Shown here: positions 16,222-51,612 of the stretch, in pieces
How the letters are laid out: every line of letters starts with the position of its first letter
Numbering within the stretch: the stretch's first letter is position 1
From: Lachnospiraceae bacterium
Lineage (GTDB): Bacteria; Bacillota; Clostridia; Lachnospirales; Lachnospiraceae
DNA: 54,577 bases
Assembly (NCBI GenBank): GCA_017408025.1
Contig: JAFQVJ010000017.1
Span: forward strand, 1 to 54,577
Reading direction: 5' to 3'
Position numbers and translations under genes: made by a program
The notes under the pieces: model-generated
Database searches by the model: none
The model's input: the letters and a program-made list of their open reading frames with translations, nothing else
What the model was told of the DNA's origin: nothing

Positions 16222-17160
16222 CTAATCTCTAAGTTCTTTTCCAGTAATTTCAAGGAATACGTCATTTAATGTTGGAAGCTCTGAGTAAACTCGGCCAAAC
16301 TGAATATCCTTTGCTTTGAAGAAATCAATCAGTCTCACAAGATTTCTCTGTCCCTTTGTATAATGAATCTTAAGATGATTATCCACATACTCTACCTTGT
16401 ATACATGTGGAAGCGCCTTTACTTCCTCTATAAGCTCCTTTGATGCATCAAGAATTTCTGCCTGAATCATCTCTCCTGTCTTAATCATATCCTTAAGCTG
16501 TTCCTTCGTGCCGATAGCAAGGTTTTTTCCCTGATCCATGATTGCTATTCTTGTACAAATCTGCTCAACCTCTTCCATGTAGTGAGATGTATATATAATG
16601 GTTGCGCCATTTTTGTTAAGCTCCTGTATACCCTCAAGAATCTTGTTTCTACTCTGTGGGTCAACTGCAACTGTAGGCTCGTCCATGAATATAAGCTTTG
16701 GCTTATGTGCAATACCGCACGCTATATTTAGTCTTCTTAAAAGTCCTCCCGAAAGCTTCTTTGGCAGGAATTTTCTAAACTCCTCAAGTCCTGCAAATGC
16801 AATCGCCTCATCTACATACTGCTTTCTAAGCTTCTTATCCTTTATGTATAATCCACAGAAGTAATCAATATTTTCCTGAACTGTAAGCTCATCAAATACC
16901 GCCACATTCTGAAGAACTACACCGATATCCTTCTTCGATTCATAGCTGCTGGCATCCATTGGCTTGCCAAATACCTTTATGCTTCCTTTATCATATTTCA
17001 AAAGTCCCAATACACAGCTGATAGTTGTAGACTTTCCGCTTCCATTTGGTCCTAAGAGACCAAATATCTCACCTTCTTCTATCTCAAGATTAAAATGATC
17101 TAATGCTACTAGCTCCTTGTATCGTTTTACAAGATTTTCTACTTCTATTACTTTACTCAT
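16222..17160 (-). CDS. ABC transporter ATP-binding protein (exporter type)
   Basis: This 312-residue ATPase has Walker A (GPNGSGKST), Q-loop VLQNVAVFDEL, signature LSGGLLRRL (the usual Gln after GG is replaced by LL), Walker B LIFMDEPTVAVDP and the H-loop TSHYMEEVE, plus the C-terminal extension common to ABC-2 drug exporters. I chose the ATG of MSKVIEVENL, 39 bases inside the longest frame, because AAAGGA lies upstream and homologues start here. It opens the five-gene exporter and two-component operon. Confidence 0.92.
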   Translation of the reverse strand: MSKVIEVENLVKRYKELVALDHFNLEIEEGEIFGLLGPNGSGKSTTISCVLGLLKYDKGSIKVFGKPMDASSYESKKDIGVVLQNVAVFDELTVQENIDYFCGLYIKDKKLRKQYVDEAIAFAGLEEFRKFLPKKLSGGLLRRLNIACGIAHKPKLIFMDEPTVAVDPQSRNKILEGIQELNKNGATIIYTSHYMEEVEQICTRIAIMDQGKNLAIGTKEQLKDMIKTGEMIQAEILDASKELIEEVKALPHVYKVEYVDNHLKIHYTKGQRNLVRLIDFFKAKDIQFGRVYSELPTLNDVFLEITGKELRD

Positions 17161-17217
17161 ATCATCATGTCCTTTCCCTGATAAGTTTTTGCTTTTCATC
17201 AGTTTACGTTAATATAT

Positions 17218-17306
17218 TACCAAACGGTAAATGTATGTGGTAGTGAAAATTGTCACAATTCTTTGATTAATTCCTGCATTGTAGGTATATGACATTTGTC
17301 ATATAC
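17218..17306 (-). promoter_or_regulatory. Candidate operators upstream of the ABC exporter operon
   Basis: Three inverted repeats lie upstream of the ATPase gene: TTACC-4-GGTAA (17218-17231), a 13-base AATTGTGACAATT palindrome near 17252, and GTATATGACA / TGTCATATAC with a 2-base spacer at 17285-17306. NarL-family regulators bind such dyads, so one may be the site of the downstream response regulator. No clear -35/-10 pair could be fixed. Confidence 0.45.
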
Positions 17307-17494
17307 TATTAAATTATATTATAAAAATCATGTTTTTTCGTGGTGTTCTTTTTCTACATATAAGGAGTATAAATGAATACACATGATACTGTTTTCAGCT
17401 CTTAAGATTAACAGACAATTTCTTTATTCTAACCATTATACAAGGAGATTGATATTTACTTCTATTACTTTATCACCAAATAGAACAAATCGTA

Positions 17495-17538
17495 GTTTTG
17501 GAGCGACAAATCATTTTATACACTTGTCGCTCCAAAAC
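17495..17538 (-). terminator. Terminator-like hairpin after the alcohol dehydrogenase remnant
   Basis: Perfect 15-base arms (GTTTTGGAGCGACAA and its complement) are separated by 14 bases, 20 bases beyond the stop codon of the remnant. It is probably the old terminator of the decayed gene. Confidence 0.65.
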
Positions 17539-17558
17539 ATGAATTATATATTTAGATT

Positions 17559-17723
17559 TTACATCAGCTTATTATAAAGCTCAACTATCTCTTCTACAGA
17601 CGTGTCTCTTGGATTACCAGGACGGCACGCATCTGCGTAAGCTGATTCTGCAAGGAACTGAATATCTTCCTGAATATATTTTATTTTGTGGAATAAAACC
17701 CTTTGCAACGAACCTAAACACAT
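17559..17723 (-). pseudogene. C-terminal remnant of an iron-containing alcohol dehydrogenase
   Basis: The minus strand encodes IQEDIQFLAESAYADACRPG followed by NPRDTSVEEIVELYNKLM and a stop. This is the recognisable last 40 residues of an iron-dependent (class III) alcohol dehydrogenase. Upstream of it the frame gives only a few codons with no dehydrogenase similarity back to an ATG, and the NAD- and iron-binding domains are absent. The fragment is well conserved at residue level, which suggests a recent deletion. The following 15-base hairpin is probably its terminator. The remaining intergenic sequence up to 17770 holds nothing else I can identify. Confidence 0.8.
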
Positions 17724-17772
17724 GATTATTATTACATAATACGCGTCATATATATTTTTAACTGCTTTTTGT

Positions 17773-18489
17773 CTATTTTACAAAAATAGCTACAGCACTT
17801 AAATTGTCATTATCTCTTTTTGCACGTTTATGTATAATCTTTAACATCTTACCTATCCATTGCTGAGGTGTCTTGCACCCTTTTAACACCTTTACCATTT
17901 CATTTTCTTGAATGTATTCCCAAAAACCATCTGTGCATAGAAGTATAGCATCATTTTCCTGCACTTCAACTGGCTCGAATACATTTAAAATTTTCAGTTT
18001 GGGCGATAATCCTATAACCTTGGTTAGTTTATTTCTATCTTCATGAAATCTCATGTCTTCTTTTTTTATCTGTCCCATATCTACACATGCCTGAGTAACA
18101 GAGTGGTCCTTGGACTGAAATATAATCTCTTGATTTCTAAAGTAATACATTCTACTGTCTCCAACATTAAGATAATTAAATCTATTCTCAATAACAAATC
18201 CAGCTACTACTGTAGATGCCATATCTCCAAGACTATTATTTTCGTCTTTAGCCATGCATATTGCTGTGTTAAGTTCCTGAATCAGAGTATGCATCGTTAA
18301 ATTTTCTATATCTTTTATACTTTCAGATCTTTTTAGAATGTAATCAACTACCATTTCTGATGCCACTTCACCACATTGATGTCCACCCAAGCCATCTGCG
18401 ACTACAAAAGTATCTTTCACTACACCAACACAATCTTCATTGTGATTCCTTCCGCCCTTATCCGAATATTTTCCCACAAATATTTCCAT
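17773..18489 (-). CDS. PP2C-type protein phosphatase
   Basis: This 238-residue phosphatase has PP2C metal-site motifs: GGRNHNEDCVGVV (E18 D19), VVADGLGGHQCGEVAS (D32 G33), MASTVVAGFV, LCTDGFWEY and a C-terminal RDNDNLSAVAIFV. It should dephosphorylate Ser/Thr phosphoproteins in the cytoplasm. It starts 7 bases after the FHA-protease gene, so it almost certainly reverses the action of the kinase encoded at the head of the same operon. Confidence 0.95.
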   Translation of the reverse strand: MEIFVGKYSDKGGRNHNEDCVGVVKDTFVVADGLGGHQCGEVASEMVVDYILKRSESIKDIENLTMHTLIQELNTAICMAKDENNSLGDMASTVVAGFVIENRFNYLNVGDSRMYYFRNQEIIFQSKDHSVTQACVDMGQIKKEDMRFHEDRNKLTKVIGLSPKLKILNVFEPVEVQENDAILLCTDGFWEYIQENEMVKVLKGCKTPQQWIGKMLKIIHKRAKRDNDNLSAVAIFVK

Positions 18490-18496
18490 TTCTCAC

Positions 18497-19738
18497 CTAT
18501 CTTCTTGTTACTATAAATTTAGTATTCTCGCTTCCCAAATAGAAGGAATCACCATCAGAAAGCTCAACAGGTGTTTCCACACTTACTTTGAGTCCTTTAT
18601 TTATAAATGTTCCATATGTAGACCCCTTATCCACAATAACAAGCATTCCATTCTGATTTTTCACCATACAATGATAACCCGATACACCCTCTGCATCTAC
18701 TGGAAGGACTATATCACATCTTTTCGGATCACGACCTATATACAGCTCTGTTTCAACAACAAATTCTTCATTTTTTAATGCCCCCGCCACACATTTTAAT
18801 GCTGGCATAGTATTTACAACAGCCACCGTCTTTGATATATCACTTGATTTTTCTCTCATCTCGCTGTTTACAGTTCTATTCTCTTTAACAGATGCAACAA
18901 TCTTCTCTTTGTTTTTATTTACAAACAAGAATACCACTATTGCCAAAATAATACCGCTAATTACGATATCAACACCTATTACCACAATTCCAAAAACGTT
19001 TACATCTTCTGTAGTTGTATAAGGAACCTCTTCTACATCTATTATTCTTAATAATTCATCTATACACACGGCATAATAAGATGTATCATCACTCAAATCC
19101 GTTATGCTAAATGTGTTTATTCCAACTACTTCTCCCGCTTCATTTACCAATGGTCCACCCGAATTTCCACTAGTTATCTGCAAATCAAGCATATAAACAT
19201 CACGTTCTCCAATCATTGTTTGCTTTGAAATCAAACCACTAGTTGTAACTATATCACTTTTATCATATTTTAGATAATCGTTATTGACAGCCGCTCTCCC
19301 CGGAAATCCTAACGAATAATGTGTTGTATTAATATCTACATCAACATTTTTTCGAATTTTAAGAGGTGTTACTTCTGTTGTTGGTTCTGGCAAGCGTAAA
19401 ACTGCTATATCCTTTTCGGCATCATAACGATATATTTGTGCACTTACATACCTATTGGCAGCAGCCGAAAAATATACATTTACATTACTCGCCTTCTCAC
19501 CATCCTCATCAAATACAACATGATAGTTTGTAACAATAAATGAAACTGGTTCTCCACTCTCTCCAATGGCAAATCCGGAACCCTGACCTTCGTTAGTAGC
19601 AATACACACTACTCCATTTTTTGCTTCCGCAAAGGTTTCTGGAAATTCATCATAAGGGTATATAAACACAAACACACAAATATTAATTATTATTAACACC
19701 GCACTCAATATAATAGCTCTCATTTTATTACTATTCAT
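18497..19738 (-). CDS. Membrane-anchored trypsin-like protease with cytoplasmic FHA domain
   Basis: The 413-residue protein has a signal anchor (about 7-27), an external trypsin-like domain with His73 (VTNYHVVF), Asp110 (EKDIAVLRL) and Ser193 (GNSGGPLVNE), a second membrane segment (about 248-273), a basic linker and a C-terminal FHA domain (YIGRDPKRCDIVL, then S and H of VSGYH and GTFIN). The protease would be outside and the FHA domain, a phosphothreonine reader, inside. Residues 301-308 (ISKTVAVV) in the linker match the threonine repeat of the adjacent kinase. It lies 12 bases after the kinase gene. All catalytic residues are present, so active proteolysis is likely; the substrate is unknown. 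Confidence 0.93.
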   Translation of the reverse strand: MNSNKMRAIILSAVLIIINICVFVFIYPYDEFPETFAEAKNGVVCIATNEGQGSGFAIGESGEPVSFIVTNYHVVFDEDGEKASNVNVYFSAAANRYVSAQIYRYDAEKDIAVLRLPEPTTEVTPLKIRKNVDVDINTTHYSLGFPGRAAVNNDYLKYDKSDIVTTSGLISKQTMIGERDVYMLDLQITSGNSGGPLVNEAGEVVGINTFSITDLSDDTSYYAVCIDELLRIIDVEEVPYTTTEDVNVFGIVVIGVDIVISGIILAIVVFLFVNKNKEKIVASVKENRTVNSEMREKSSDISKTVAVVNTMPALKCVAGALKNEEFVVETELYIGRDPKRCDIVLPVDAEGVSGYHCMVKNQNGMLVIVDKGSTYGTFINKGLKVSVETPVELSDGDSFYLGSENTKFIVTRR

Positions 19739-19750
19739 CTTATCTTCCTC

Positions 19751-22036
19751 CTATGGTAACTGTAATATGTAATTCCATTCAGTAATATCAGGGTCATCAT
19801 CGCCCCATACACCATCTTCCATAAATCCTTTTAAGCATATTCCCATATAATCACCCATATACCCAGAACTTGCGTTATATGCAGTAAGTTCTCCATATGG
19901 CATTCCTGCCACCCATGTACACTGATAATATATTTCTGCAAAATCGTACCCACGCCAATTACTAGAAGAAAAATCTATAGTCGTGGCTGCACCATCCTCT
20001 GCTGTTCCACCGCCTATCAACGCATATGCAAACGTACCCAATCCGTTTGGCACTCCATTACTCCACTGACCACTGTAATAAGCACTTGTTTTTTGTATAT
20101 CAGTGTATGGTGACTGTATAATATCACCTATAAATTTTCCTTGTCCATTTGGTTTACCATTTTCAATATAACCTGTATATTTTCCTGGATAAGTCTCACC
20201 AAATATAGTTAATTCATATGCCTTATTTGTTACATAATTTGATGGTGTTGTCGTTTCTTTAACCGTTGTTGTTTCCTTAGGTGTTGTCGTTTCTTTAGCT
20301 GTTGTCGTTTCTTTAGCTGTTGTCGTTTCCTTAGTTTTCGTTGTTTCTTTTGTTTTCGTTGTCTCCTTTGTTGTAGTCTCGCCAACATCTACAGATACCA
20401 ATTCACTACTTTCCAATACTGTAGTTGACTCCTCTTTATTAGTTGAGCTCTCTTCAGCATTGGTTTTTTCCGCATCTGCATATGTCGTATGCTGTGTCGT
20501 TGTCTCGCCGTTATCTGCCATATATGAGGTTGTATCTTTAACCGTCTTTCCAACTGCTCCCATACCAGTATTACTACTATCATCATTACCTAAGAAAAAT
20601 AATGCACATACACCAAGCGCAACAACCGTGGTTATAGCAACGCAACACACAACTATACCTTTTCTAGTTTTTATAAAAGATATTATACTTTTCTCTTCAA
20701 TACCGTGTTGATTCAAAGCTACAGTTTGTCCAATATCACCCTGACTTGATGCTGCCACTGTTTCTCCTATTTCACTGTCATCACTTTGGCTTGATACCGC
20801 TACCGTTTCTCCGATTTCACTGTCATCACTTTGGTTTGATACCGCTACCGTTTCTCCGATTTCACTGTCATCACCTTTGTTTGATATCGCTACCGTTTCT
20901 CCGATTTCACTGTCATCACCTTTGTTTGATATCGCTACTGTTTCTCCGATTTCACTGTTGTTACCTTGGCTTGATACTGCCACTGTTTCTCCTATATCTT
21001 TTACTACGCCCTTATCTTCCATCATAGAAACAGTCGTTTCATTCTCTTGATTTATTAATGGAATAGGCTTTATATCTAATGAATTCAACGCATTCTTAAG
21101 TTCAAATATGTTTTGATATCTATTTTCAATACGAACCTCCATACATTTCTTCACTATATTCCACAGTTCTTTATCTACTCCATATTCATCTGCATTCCCT
21201 ATGTCCGAATCCTCTATTCGTTCTGTCGCATCATCAGGTGCATTTCCAACCAGGCTATAATACATCGTCGCACCCAAAGCATAAATATCACTCCAAGGTC
21301 CTTGTTTGCCCTTGCGTTGATATTGTTCTAATGGTGCAAATCCCTGTTTTAATATTACAGAAAGACTTCTCGATTGTTCAATAAGAACTTGTCGTGCTGC
21401 ACCAAAATCAATCAGTTTCACTCCTCCATCTTTCATAATATATATATTGTCTGGCGCAATATCTCTATGCAAAACATTCATACTATGAGTAATTAATAAT
21501 GCATCTGTAATTTTATTCACAACATAAAGAAGCTGTCCCTGACTAAGCTTGTTATTATTCTCTTTAATAAACGTTTTCAAATCACAACCTTCCAGATATT
21601 CCATAACAAAATATACGGTATCATTTTCACGGAATATCTCGAACACGCTTACTATATTGGGGTTACCATTAAATTTAGAAACCGTCTTAGCTTCCTCATA
21701 AAACTTCTCCGCGCCATTTACAAAACTGTCAAACTGTTTCTCATCAGTTACCGACACTTCTTTTTTCCATGTATCTCGATGTGCAATGCCACTAGGATAG
21801 TATTCTTTCACTGCAACAACTTTTTTGTTTCTGGTATCATATGCTTTATACGTTATGCCAAATCCACCTTTACCCAACACCTGTCCAACAACATAGTCTG
21901 TGTTAAGAACTGTTCCAACAGGTAGGTTTCCAACACTAGGCTTATATTTAGAACGCTTATAACCACAGCATTTACAAGGCTCACTTTTTATCTCGGAAAA
22001 GCAATTATCACATAGCCTCTTCTTTCCTATATTCAT
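19751..22036 (-). CDS. Transmembrane Ser/Thr protein kinase with ETVA repeats and external MORN repeats
   Basis: The 761-residue kinase begins with a small zinc-ribbon-like Cys cluster (C9, C12, C21, C23, C24), then a Hanks kinase domain (GKGGFG loop about 55-60, K77 in VAVKEYY, HRDIAPDN with D192, DFG at 210-212, GFAPLEQY activation segment). Residues 348-441 hold seven tandem IGETVAVS-like repeats of about 15 residues. A membrane segment (about 460-482), a Thr-rich KETTT linker (553-598) and external MORN-like repeats (YPGKYTGYIENGKPNGQGKF, YYSGQWSNGVPNGLGTF) follow. AAGGAG precedes the ATG. It heads the operon with the FHA-protease and PP2C genes, and probably couples an extracytoplasmic signal to phosphorylation. 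Confidence 0.93.
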   Translation of the reverse strand: MNIGKKRLCDNCFSEIKSEPCKCCGYKRSKYKPSVGNLPVGTVLNTDYVVGQVLGKGGFGITYKAYDTRNKKVVAVKEYYPSGIAHRDTWKKEVSVTDEKQFDSFVNGAEKFYEEAKTVSKFNGNPNIVSVFEIFRENDTVYFVMEYLEGCDLKTFIKENNNKLSQGQLLYVVNKITDALLITHSMNVLHRDIAPDNIYIMKDGGVKLIDFGAARQVLIEQSRSLSVILKQGFAPLEQYQRKGKQGPWSDIYALGATMYYSLVGNAPDDATERIEDSDIGNADEYGVDKELWNIVKKCMEVRIENRYQNIFELKNALNSLDIKPIPLINQENETTVSMMEDKGVVKDIGETVAVSSQGNNSEIGETVAISNKGDDSEIGETVAISNKGDDSEIGETVAVSNQSDDSEIGETVAVSSQSDDSEIGETVAASSQGDIGQTVALNQHGIEEKSIISFIKTRKGIVVCCVAITTVVALGVCALFFLGNDDSSNTGMGAVGKTVKDTTSYMADNGETTTQHTTYADAEKTNAEESSTNKEESTTVLESSELVSVDVGETTTKETTKTKETTKTKETTTAKETTTAKETTTPKETTTVKETTTPSNYVTNKAYELTIFGETYPGKYTGYIENGKPNGQGKFIGDIIQSPYTDIQKTSAYYSGQWSNGVPNGLGTFAYALIGGGTAEDGAATTIDFSSSNWRGYDFAEIYYQCTWVAGMPYGELTAYNASSGYMGDYMGICLKGFMEDGVWGDDDPDITEWNYILQLP
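20714..20995 (-). repeat. Tandem 45-bp coding repeats (IGETVAVS units)
   Basis: Six to seven near-identical units encode SEIGETVAxSxxxDD. The DNA units are about 45 bases and highly similar, so they can expand or contract by slippage. Every unit keeps the Thr-Val-Ala core. Confidence 0.9.
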
Positions 22037-22076
22037 TTTATCACACTCCTTATATCACGAATACATTCTATACACA

Positions 22077-22105
22077 ATTATATAACTAATTCACGCCAAT
22101 AGCAA
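22077..22105 (-). promoter_or_regulatory. Promoter of the kinase operon
   Basis: On the minus strand TTGCTA and TATAAT are separated by exactly 17 bases, about 40 bases upstream of the kinase start codon. Confidence 0.7.
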
Positions 22106-22159
22106 CAAGATTTTAGACAAAAGGTGACATATAAAAATAATTATGAGAATGTTTATAAA

Positions 22160-22202
22160 GAAAAAATGCAAATAAAAAGAAACCCTTAGGGGTTTCTTTT
22201 TC
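22160..22202. terminator. Bidirectional intrinsic terminator, copy A
   Basis: AAAAAGAAACCC, a 3-4 base loop and GGGTTTCTTTTT form a GC-capped hairpin with A and T tracts on both sides. About 42 bases, starting AAAAAATGCAAATAAAAAG, are repeated at 22319. The region between the kinase gene and yebC holds only these terminators and the structured element at 22238. Confidence 0.8.
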
Positions 22203-22237
22203 CTTCCTTCCCCTTATTTACCTTTTCTCTCCTCTCT

Positions 22238-22303
22238 AAACTCAGCTCGAGCTTCGCTCTTTATCTCCTTCGGAGATAGGCACTTCGTGCCTTAGCTGAG
22301 TTT
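22238..22303. repeat. Four-way-junction element with three TTCG-type hairpins
   Basis: A perfect 10-bp closing stem (AAACTCAGCT / AGCTGAGTTT) encloses three consecutive hairpins: GAGC-TTC-GCTC, TATCTCC-TTC-GGAGATA and GGCAC-TTC-GTGCC. Almost every base is paired, on either strand. It is flanked by two copies of the same terminator. Confidence 0.85.
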
Positions 22304-22305
22304 AT

Positions 22306-22385
22306 CGTGGGACGAGTAGAAAAAATGCAAATAAAAAGAAACCCTTAGGGGTTTCTTTTTGCTTGCATTTATTTCTACTCGTCCC
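22306..22385. repeat. Large inverted repeat copying the yebC 3' end, with terminator copy B
   Basis: The left arm TGGGACGAGTAGAAA..AAATGCAA is the reverse complement of the yebC stop region (right arm ends at 22385), with one or two mismatches. The loop holds the second copy of the AAAGAAACCC / GGGTTTCTTT terminator (22319-22361). The whole is an 80-base palindrome that overlaps the yebC stop codon. Confidence 0.8.
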
Positions 22386-23103
22386 AGTTGTGATATACTG
22401 CTTGGACGTCGTCGTCCTCATCAAGTAAGTCTAAGATTCTGTTAATCTTCTTGATATCATCTTCTGATGTTAATTCTACATAATTCTGTGGAAGCATTGT
22501 TACTTCGGCTGAAACCATTGGGATTCCTTCCTTCTCAAGTGCCTGGCGTACTGTCTCGCAATCGTCTGGTGCTGTGAGAATCTCGAAGCTGTCTTCTTCT
22601 TCTGCGAAGTCCTCTGCCCCTGCATCAAGAGCTGTCATCATAATTGTATCTGCGTCTAACTGGCACTCTTCCTTATCAATAATTATCTGTCCCTTCTTAT
22701 CAAACATATACGATACACAGCCAGTTGTTCCTACATTTCCGCCACCCTTTGTGAATGCGTTTCTTACGTTTGAAGCTGTTCTGTTTCTATTATCTGTAAG
22801 TGCATCAACGATAATAGCTGTTCCGCTAGGACCGTATCCCTCGTATGTAACTACTTCGTAATTAACTGAGTTTGCATCACCAGCTGCCTTCTTAATACCT
22901 CTGTCGATTGTATCATTTGGCATATTATTAGCCTTTGCCTTTGCAATAACGGCTGCGAGCTTTGAGTTGTTTGCCGGGTCTGGACCACCCTCTTTAACTG
23001 CTACTGCGATTTCACGACCGATAATTGTGAAAATCTTACCCTTTGCAGCGTCGTTCTTCTCCTTCTTATGCTTAATGTTGGCAAATTTTGAATGTCCTGA
23101 CAT
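22375..23103 (-). CDS. yebC: YebC/PmpR-family regulator
   Basis: The 242-residue protein is full length and shows the family start [20 protein letters not shown] followed by [14 protein letters not shown] and [21 protein letters not shown], and an acidic tail. YebC proteins bind DNA in some species and recent work links them to relief of ribosome stalling at proline motifs; either role would be cytoplasmic. AAGGAG precedes the ATG. An unusual palindromic duplication of its own 3' end lies immediately downstream. Confidence 0.97.
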
Positions 23104-28553: not shown

Positions 28554-28557
28554 ATAT

Positions 28558-28747
28558 GACACCTTTACCTTTTTCTCAGTATCTACGTTTTTAGCAAAAT
28601 TCCTGCGGAATTTTGGTCATGACACCTTTACCTTTTTCTCAGTATCTACGTTTTTAGCAAAATTCCTGCGGAATTTTGGTCCATGACACCTTTACCTTTT
28701 TCTCAGTATCTACGTTTTCAGCAAAATTCCTGCGAAATTTTGGTCAT
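28558..28747. repeat. Three tandem 63-bp direct repeats upstream of acpS
   Basis: Copies occupy 28558-28620, 28621-28684 and 28685-28747 and are nearly identical. Each contains a hairpin AAAATTCC-TGC-GGAATTTT. On the minus strand each copy ends AAAGGTGTC, and an ATG follows that opens a 9-codon reading frame (MTKIPQEFC in the first two). The third copy covers the stop codon of the upstream gene and the first provides the acpS ribosome site. Confidence 0.93.
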
Positions 28748-29364
28748 GACTGTTCTCTGTACTTTTTGTAATCTCTGATTATATCACTGTCTACCATATC
28801 TAGAAGATATTTCTCCATCATTGCATTTTCTTCCTTCTTCTTCTGCAACAAAAGTACTCTCTTCTTAAGCTCAATACGAGTCTCATTTATCCAACTCTCA
28901 AGCACTTCTATATCTTCTTCATTTTCCTCGTAGCTATCTAATATTTCATCCATACTTTCAAGCATAAGCTGCGCATTAATTTCAGCCATATTATCAGGAA
29001 TGTCCAACTCTTCATCCTCAAGAAGAATAAGCTTGTCATTTATATCATCTATAAGTTCCTTGCTCTTTTTAACCTTTTTATCTGCACGGCTATCCTCAGG
29101 TGAATCCATATTTTCGACTATTTCCTGCATAAGCTGCTTCTTTATACGTTTCAAATCTTTTCTATCGTTGGTTATCCCACCTTGTCTCTTTATAATATCA
29201 TTGAGTTGCTTTTCAAGCTTAGCAATATTTGAAGGCTTATCAGGTGTATTAAATATCGCCTGCCACTTTACATCCAGTGTCAACGGTGGAATATGCTTTC
29301 TCTTAATTTTTTGTACAATATCTTCAAATTCTATGTAATCTTCATCGACTCTTCTCTTTGCCAT
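28744..29364 (-). CDS. Coiled-coil cytoplasmic protein, unknown function
   Basis: I do not recognise a named family. The 206-residue protein is highly charged and almost entirely helical, with heptad-like stretches (about 55-105 and 150-195) and no signal peptide or membrane segment. It starts MAKRRVDEDYIEFEDIV; GGAGGG at 8 bases decides this ATG over one 24 bases upstream. Its stop codon lies inside the third copy of the 63-bp repeat. Its place between rex and acpS does not indicate a role. Confidence 0.75.
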   Translation of the reverse strand: MAKRRVDEDYIEFEDIVQKIKRKHIPPLTLDVKWQAIFNTPDKPSNIAKLEKQLNDIIKRQGGITNDRKDLKRIKKQLMQEIVENMDSPEDSRADKKVKKSKELIDDINDKLILLEDEELDIPDNMAEINAQLMLESMDEILDSYEENEEDIEVLESWINETRIELKKRVLLLQKKKEENAMMEKYLLDMVDSDIIRDYKKYREQS

Positions 29365-45387: not shown

Positions 45388-45660
45388 GCGCTCGCAATCG
45401 CAGTATTCGCAACTCTCGAGCTTCGCTCTTCGTTGCTCATACTGTATTTTTTCCATTTTTATACGTGTAAACTCGATTGCTTTGCTTCTTCGAAGCGCTC
45501 GCAATCGCAGTATTCGCAACTCTCGAGCTTCGCTCTTCGTTGCTCATACTGTATTCTTTCCATTTTTATACGTGTAAACTCGATTGCTTTGCTTCTTCGA
45601 AGCGCTCGCAATCGCAGTATTCGCAACTCTCGAGCTTTGCTCTTCGTTGCTCATACTGTA
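45388..45660. repeat. 107-bp tandem repeat, about 2.5 copies
   Basis: Units start at 45388, 45495 and 45602 and are almost identical. Each holds nested stems: CAGTAT / ATACTG around GCAAC / GTTGC around GAGC-TTC-GCTC, plus GCTTC-TTC-GAAGC at the unit boundary. It lies between the DUF5688 start and the efp terminator. GC is higher than in the flanks. No convincing gene is contained. Confidence 0.95.
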
Positions 45661-51477: not shown

Positions 51478-51523
51478 CTTCTACTAAAGGAAAATACTTT
51501 GAAATACTAACGACAATATACAT

Positions 51524-51612
51524 ATATACATAAGATAACTCACTAATGATAATTGTACAGATATACATAAGATAACTCACTAATGATAATTGTACAGATA
51601 TACATAAGATAA
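51524..51612. repeat. 37-bp direct tandem repeat, 2.4 copies
   Basis: Units at 51524-51560 and 51561-51597 are identical; a third copy is cut after 15 bases by the terminator hairpin. The unit begins ATATACATAAGATAACTCAC. It lies within the presumed tRNA-Leu (CAG) primary transcript. Confidence 0.95.

Follow-up and report, generated by a model that had tools for sequence, protein, structure and literature searches.

The DNA analysed here, hereafter the window, is a stretch of 54,577 nucleotides from a Lachnospiraceae bacterium (contig JAFQVJ010000017.1), whose minus strand carries a run of three genes encoding a transmembrane (TM) Ser/Thr protein kinase, a membrane-anchored trypsin joined to an FHA domain (trypsin-FHA), and a PP2C phosphatase. 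The gap between the kinase and trypsin-FHA genes was 12 bases, and that between the trypsin-FHA and PP2C genes was 7 bases. The original prediction had described a TM kinase with seven repeats, a trypsin-TM-FHA protein with ISKTVAVV at residues 301-308, and PP2C as the third gene, and this three-gene run was confirmed. The PP2C gene was present as stated, although at 17773-18489 it lies outside the interval 18497-22036 to which that prediction referred. An Stp1-type model matched the phosphatase with 175.5 bits, under its cut-off of 230. The features of the locus were as follows.

17773..18489, minus strand: PP2C phosphatase open reading frame (ORF), 238 aa (Pfam PP2C_2, E 7.9e-14)
18497..19738, minus strand: membrane-anchored trypsin/HtrA-like protein with a predicted cytoplasmic FHA domain, 413 aa (ORF list, Pfam)
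18533..18742, minus strand: FHA domain, residues 333-402 (Pfam, E 3e-15)
18815..18838, minus strand: ISKTVAVV, residues 301-308, with T304 as the proposed phosphoacceptor (sequence)
19118..19582, minus strand: Trypsin_2 domain, residues 53-207 (Pfam, E 5.8e-24)
19751..22036, minus strand: Ser/Thr protein kinase ORF, 761 aa (ORF list, Pfam)
20021..20077, minus strand: best MORN repeat, residues 654-672 (Pfam; two MORN stretches in the kinase)
20237..20383, minus strand: Thr-rich KETT stalk, residues 552-600 (extracytoplasmic according to the inferred topology)
20597..20656, minus strand: kinase TM segment, near residue 461 (hydropathy)
20711..20995, minus strand: seven IG[EQ]TVAxx repeats, residues 348-442, proposed phosphothreonine docking array (sequence)
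21074..21916, minus strand: kinase catalytic domain, residues 41-321 (HRD and DFG motifs; Pfam Pkinase 48-307, E 2.6e-35)

The window kinase was composed, in order, of N-terminal CxxC pairs (zinc-ribbon-like by eye), the catalytic domain, the juxtamembrane array, one TM segment, the Thr-rich stalk and the MORN ectodomain. The membrane topology of the window proteins was assigned from hydropathy and domain logic. Since the array precedes the TM segment, it would be cytoplasmic if the kinase domain is cytoplasmic. Its repeats started at residues 348, 363, 378, 393, 408, 423, and 435; five of them read IGETVA[VI]S, the sixth IGETVAAS, and the seventh IGQTVALN. The underlying DNA was a 45-bp tandem repeat (5.7 copies, 90% matches), so that the copy number arose by duplication and alone proves little. 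The codons of the copies were therefore compared pairwise, with the pairs not mutually independent: the IGETVA core of the first six copies contained 33 synonymous and 0 non-synonymous differences, and the remaining nine codons per unit (five copies) contained 0 synonymous and 32 non-synonymous differences. The IGETVA core is kept while the spacer drifts. The pattern GGNGARACNGTNGCNNTN was matched five times in the source assembly (about 91% complete), all five inside the window kinase. The Pfam matches of this kinase included MORN instead of PASTA repeats, and no TPR was found among them up to E 1. The PASTA-kinase equivalog model matched the kinase part alone, with 146.8 bits versus a cut-off of 450. 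MORN-like ectodomains were seen in two further kinases from the loci fetched from other genomes, L093 (confirmed by Pfam) and L055, and the tails of other fetched kinases were DUF5050, YARHG, LRR or TPR.

The trypsin-FHA protein contained two hydrophobic segments, one N-terminal and a second near residue 251, with ISKTVAVV located between the second segment and the FHA domain. The trypsin domain showed catalytic-type His, Asp and Ser motifs (NYHVV, KDIAVLRL, and GNSGGPL), and by sequence comparison its closest solved relatives were Deg/HtrA proteases, from E 2.5e-12. The best NCBIfam model was MarP_fam_protase, at a sub-threshold 69.5 of 250 bits. No PDZ domain was found among the Pfam matches up to E 1, no Pfam match to DUF6382 was obtained in this protein, which carries Trypsin_2, and the OdhI model scored 17.8 bits against a cut-off of 200. 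FHA domains bind phosphothreonine. The binding signature consists of GR, SxxH, and NG motifs according to passages of PMC1262709; in the window FHA domain GR (335-336) and SGYH (353-356) were present, and N380 was followed by K381 and G382 (N-K-G, not NG). T304 lay 15 residues ahead of the FHA start defined by the hidden Markov model.

We further investigated whether the gene combination and its motif recurred in related genomes. Within the family, 20 of 397 genomes, including the source genome, matched the trypsin-FHA protein at E up to 1e-14. A kinase and a PP2C gene were found on the same strand within the fetched stretch for 15 of the 17 trypsin-FHA ORFs in the first set of loci, window included, the remaining two (L098 and L099) having neither; the whole combination was repeated in L093, with a kinase bearing 12 MORN stretches. 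When a genome-contig collection was searched with the protease sequence, no relative was found. The linker motif itself was present in 5 of the 17 trypsin-FHA ORFs (the window, L049, L097, L102, and L096, the last with GETSVL twice in addition). Each of the six loci with the nearest full-length homologues (L088-L093) encoded a small zinc-ribbon-FHA protein, and in four of them (L088, L089, L091, and L092) this protein carried TVA motifs such as VGKTVAASSVGKTVAAV; in L090 the kinase juxtamembrane contained SETVPA, SETVSA, and GETVPD. The motif thus recurs with the gene cluster rather than with any single protein, as TVA motifs occurred on a separate zinc-ribbon-FHA protein in four of six loci. 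The source genome also holds a second kinase/PP2C/FHA cluster on contig C45 (L043 3596-16659), with further PP2C ORFs; the linkers there contained GGTTILVEE (DUF6382-FHA) and DKTMPLM (zinc-ribbon-FHA protein).

Linkers preceding FHA domains were collected in three sets and compared with shuffled sequences. The picked set comprised 31 loci (L167-L197), chosen by hand and not at random from the best-scoring FHA matches before the linkers were seen, and yielded 30 linkers after L193 was dropped with 10 residues left after TM trimming. T[VI].[VILMF] was found in 16 of these 30, compared to a shuffle mean of 1.5 that reached this count in 0 of 1000 shuffles, and the serine version was found in one (2.3 expected). 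The same threonine pattern occurred in 12 of 58 linkers of the set chosen through the protease (4.0 expected) and in 7 of 29 linkers of a third FHA set (2.6 expected; 7 of 1000 shuffles reached that count). Around the threonines of the 117 linkers, V at +1 (64 observed, 23.4 expected), L at +3 (69 and 20.2), and an acidic residue at -1 (73 and 49.5) were in excess; around the serines, L at +3 was seen 26 times with 25.4 expected. All five DUF6382-FHA proteins scanned (L043, L044, L045, L174, and L177) had the linker motif. Among 20 zinc-ribbon-FHA proteins found by pattern, 15 linkers contained T[VI].[VILMF] (2.2 expected) and two its serine version (2.2 expected). T[VIM][AGP], a pattern selected after inspection of these linkers, was present in 20 of 20 (5.4 expected; serine version 3 of 20, 4.9 expected), at 48 sites versus 6.4 expected. 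This excess speaks for selection of a threonine motif close to FHA domains, but the binding partners do not follow from it. In the small zinc-ribbon-FHA family (for example, L088 6326-6865 and L126 6167-6868), the motifs follow the ribbon and precede the FHA domain; the family looks like a dedicated phospho-scaffold.

The kinases showed the same preference. The juxtamembranes of 25 TM kinases (at least 20 residues) contained the threonine motif in eight cases (2.4 expected) and the serine motif in two (3.2 expected); when the window and L115 were removed, the counts were 6 of 23 (1.8 expected) and 2 of 23 (2.4 expected), respectively. The locus L115 provided a parallel to the window, with the order PP2C, an unrelated LRR-tailed TM kinase carrying four [IMV]GETV[LV]LS repeats before its TM segment, and a TM-FHA protein. 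In these repeats the core showed 21 synonymous and 3 non-synonymous codon pair differences, and the next eight codons 2 and 39. No tandem array comparable to that of the L115 kinase was seen in its relatives, either over the 200 residues following the kinase domain (L163-L166) or over the 230 residues examined (L122); looser sites were seen in L163 (three KTV/ETV) and L166 (one ETVGV).

A genome-contig collection was scanned for three ETV-x-hydrophobic motifs. Among the matches listed, the repeat lay in frame in an ORF at 44 loci, and a kinase domain was found in 5 of these versus 0 of 75 others; as L251 and L301 proved to be the same metagenome-assembled genome, the corrected count among the matches listed was 4 of 43 versus 0 of 75 (p 0.016). 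In a Collinsella locus (L246/L331), which also contained an FHA gene, the PP2C gene preceded that of a 1176-aa kinase whose N-terminus bore twelve [GD][EQ]T[VI]T[VI] repeats. A Desulfococcaceae kinase of 903 aa (L299, 311-3022) had eight QETVA repeats and the variants QETLAI and HETATI ahead of its kinase domain, which was followed by a cyclic-nucleotide-binding domain. In Lachnospiraceae AC3007 (L259), three ETVLL and three TVPM motifs were located between two parts of the kinase match. L251/L301 contained, beside a kinase, a TM protein that was truncated at the end of the contig and carried four ETVLL motifs and one ETVFI, and the same genome also held a trypsin-TM-FHA gene flanked on both sides by PP2C genes, plus a kinase.

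Taken together, the sequences suggest that the threonine motifs are docking sites that would let phosphorylation inside the cell control an enzyme outside it. The reading we favour, to which we give about an even chance, is a multivalent phosphothreonine docking switch that would work by analogy with PknG/GarA and be wired to an external HtrA-like protease. The kinase ectodomain would gather kinases, leading to autophosphorylation of the tandem IGE-T-VAV threonines. The protease FHA domain, in which the GR and SxxH residues of the phosphothreonine-binding signature are present and NG reads N-K-G, could then dock on the phosphorylated array, collecting several proteases under one kinase cluster and accelerating phosphorylation of the linker residue T304. 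As in GarA and TIFA, phosphorylated T304 might bind the protease's own FHA domain or that of a neighbour, resulting in release from the kinase or in protease chaining. Clustering through the TM segment may alter the activity of the external protease, which is the weakest step, and PP2C, judged by its gene linkage, would reset the motifs. More tentatively, and with doubt, E-T-V-x-aliphatic tandem arrays could be a phosphothreonine scaffold code used generally by bacterial kinase-PP2C-FHA clusters. Under this code the array would sit now on the kinase and now on the zinc-ribbon-FHA partner, would have arisen repeatedly in separate lineages, and would build multivalent, possibly condensate-like membrane clusters, which in the window would gate an external protease from inside. 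To our knowledge, a substrate or reader is known for few kinase-phosphatase-FHA clusters of Clostridia and other bacteria. If the code is real, such clusters would gain a predicted phosphosite and reader from sequence alone, and a route would exist for cytoplasmic phosphorylation to control an enzyme outside the cell. Since threonine and not serine is enriched, the prediction is directly testable with short peptides.

The self-docking phospho-switch of the original prediction stood in part. In its favour were the threonine-specific enrichment, the kept array core, the parallel in L115, and the precedent of PknG. The conservation of TVA that it had foreseen in homologous loci held for the zinc-ribbon-FHA protein in four of six loci but not for the protease, whose linker motif was absent in the six nearest full-length homologues, L088-L093. 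Several further results weigh against the docking switch. Of the seven same-genus genomes searched with the protease, five had a single weak match (E 1.5e-6 to 2.4e-5), confined to the trypsin part. When the protease linker was shuffled, 15% of the sequences contained T[VI]x[VILMF] and 4.5% contained TVA, so that the single linker motif is not significant alone and needs outside support. The linker sets include related proteins (DUF6382-FHA and zinc-ribbon-FHA), and their counts are therefore not independent; the picked linkers came mostly from the best-scoring FHA matches, and some of their motifs may fall in the first FHA strand. The third FHA set was weak, its stricter pattern being reached by 22 of 1000 shuffles. 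Among kinases other than those of the window and L115, [GE]T[VI] was not enriched (3 of 23, 1.8 expected). Long GETV arrays were rare: a profile of the array searched over the 397 family genomes gave 14 that passed E 0.1, and just G000, G113, and G321 fell below 0.01. No kinase, FHA, trypsin or PP2C was found in the stretch fetched for G321 (L158). The scan for three ETV-x-hydrophobic motifs matched at least 119 loci, which are a sample.

The other candidates from these searches were set aside individually. The stretches fetched for the array-profile matches G234 (L160) and G142 (L161) held no kinase, FHA, trypsin or PP2C; in G033 (L159) the PP2C gene was cut by the end of the stretch, and in G152 (L162) the kinase was located away from the match. 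G013, G095, G184, G220, G278, and G162:C26 were left out of the follow-up. Among the tblastn-level matches, nothing was found at G237, G189, G173, and G070 (L116-L119, with G070:C77 as L119), and G219 and G279 were left out of the wider fetching.

An unlikely though serious alternative is that the kinase array recruits other FHA proteins, that the protease FHA answers its own or a neighbour's linker, and that the motifs match through the taste of one kinase rather than through competition. The six FHA matches of the source assembly would offer such partners, the DUF6382-FHA proteins on contigs C16, C29, and C45 carry TTVL, TVIL, and TTIL motifs, and the placement of TVA on the zinc-ribbon-FHA protein instead of the protease in the nearest homologous loci agrees with it; however, the protease FHA is the sole FHA gene of the three-gene run, 12 bases from the kinase gene, and in L115 a TM-FHA gene again directly follows the array kinase. 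The array could also be an autophosphorylation buffer or activity switch, with many acceptor sites setting a threshold and no FHA domain reading them. Juxtamembrane autophosphorylation of mycobacterial kinases has reportedly been published, and for two kinases with motif-like sites, L162 and L047, no FHA ORF was detected in the stretch fetched. We regard this as distinctly unlikely, in that the T-V-x-aliphatic excess lies next to FHA domains and concerns threonine but not serine, consistent with reading by an FHA domain.

Neutral expansion of the 45-bp repeat in a flexible linker, without function, was already disfavoured and appears highly improbable: although the array is a tandem DNA repeat and most homologous kinases fetched lack it, the core differences in the window kinase are all synonymous, those in the spacer are all non-synonymous, and arrays recur in different kinases. 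The least probable explanation, which we consider extremely unlikely, is that the set is a type VII secretion accessory, comparable to the TseD kinase, TseF phosphatase, and TseJ FHA protein of T7SSe, with the protease acting on secreted proteins. T7SSe clusters do include a DUF6382-FHA protein along with a kinase and a PPM phosphatase (passages of PMC11217815), and on contig C16 of the source genome a kinase, PP2C, and DUF6382-FHA lie near an EssC-like gene. No EssC-like ORF was detected by phmmer in the window or in the searched trypsin-FHA stretches, mostly 7 to 20 kb, and EssC-like matches were confined to L045/L046, L059, L062, L130, L164, L166, and L169.

A hairpin element with three arms was predicted upstream of the kinase gene, at 22210-22325 on the minus strand (fold -43.6 kcal/mol, z -5.47). 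The stretch 22205-22330 matched only itself in the assembly and had no Rfam match. Two identical copies of a terminator-like hairpin lay on either side of the element, at 22174-22201 and 22333-22360 (minus strand), which might reflect duplication or insertion of a segment between the kinase gene and the ORF at 22375-23103, which was YebC-like as judged by eye. An Rfam search of 17100-22600 gave no match, and promoter-like sites at the locus were not above shuffled sequence (28 vs 25.0). Further tandem repeats were located in the window at 28556-28750 (63 bp x 3.1), 45388-45660 (107 bp x 2.6), and 51519-51612 (37 bp x 2.5).

The docking switch was compared with known systems. The combination of MORN kinase, trypsin-FHA, and PP2C was not described in the literature that we searched. 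The closest printed account found was that of the T7SSc-j clusters, where kinases, phosphatases, and FHA proteins recur and may indicate regulation by phosphorylation, and the T7SSc-j passages of PMC11217815 mention no linker motif. As far as those passages describe them, T7SSe and T7SSf resemble the window in combining a TM kinase (TseD), a PPM phosphatase (TseF), and an FHA component (TseJ) in one cluster, and their DUF6382-FHA type shared the same kind of linker motif in five of five examined; the window differs in having trypsin instead of DUF6382, with no EssC-type ATPase found in it. In the animal adaptor TIFA, a phosphothreonine before its own FHA domain leads to head-to-tail assembly and condensation, according to passages of PMC10865109. 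The window protease likewise has a candidate phosphothreonine ahead of its own FHA domain, whereas TIFA is an adaptor without a protease. We know of no matching array on its partner ALPK1. With HtrA/DegS and MarP-type membrane proteases, the window protein shares a trypsin-like domain predicted outside the membrane and the His-Asp-Ser triad motifs; unlike HtrA/Deg, it has a cytoplasmic FHA as an extra domain and no PDZ match. The nearest counterpart in working is PknG with GarA/OdhI of Actinobacteria. Passages of PMC8546545 describe that PknG autophosphorylates threonines in a disordered extension, that these sites anchor the FHA domain of GarA, that OdhI and GarA carry an ETTS phosphoacceptor motif, and that PknG is about 45-fold more active on OdhI than on a peptide lacking the FHA domain. 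To the extent of that account, both systems place threonine sites outside the catalytic core and have an FHA protein with its own threonine motif before the FHA domain. The sites of PknG are different and non-repeated and are accompanied by a TPR scaffold, whereas the window array is near-identical, tandem, and next to a TM segment, and unlike GarA the window FHA is tied through a TM segment to an external protease. The window system may work like PknG/GarA but is not a member of it.

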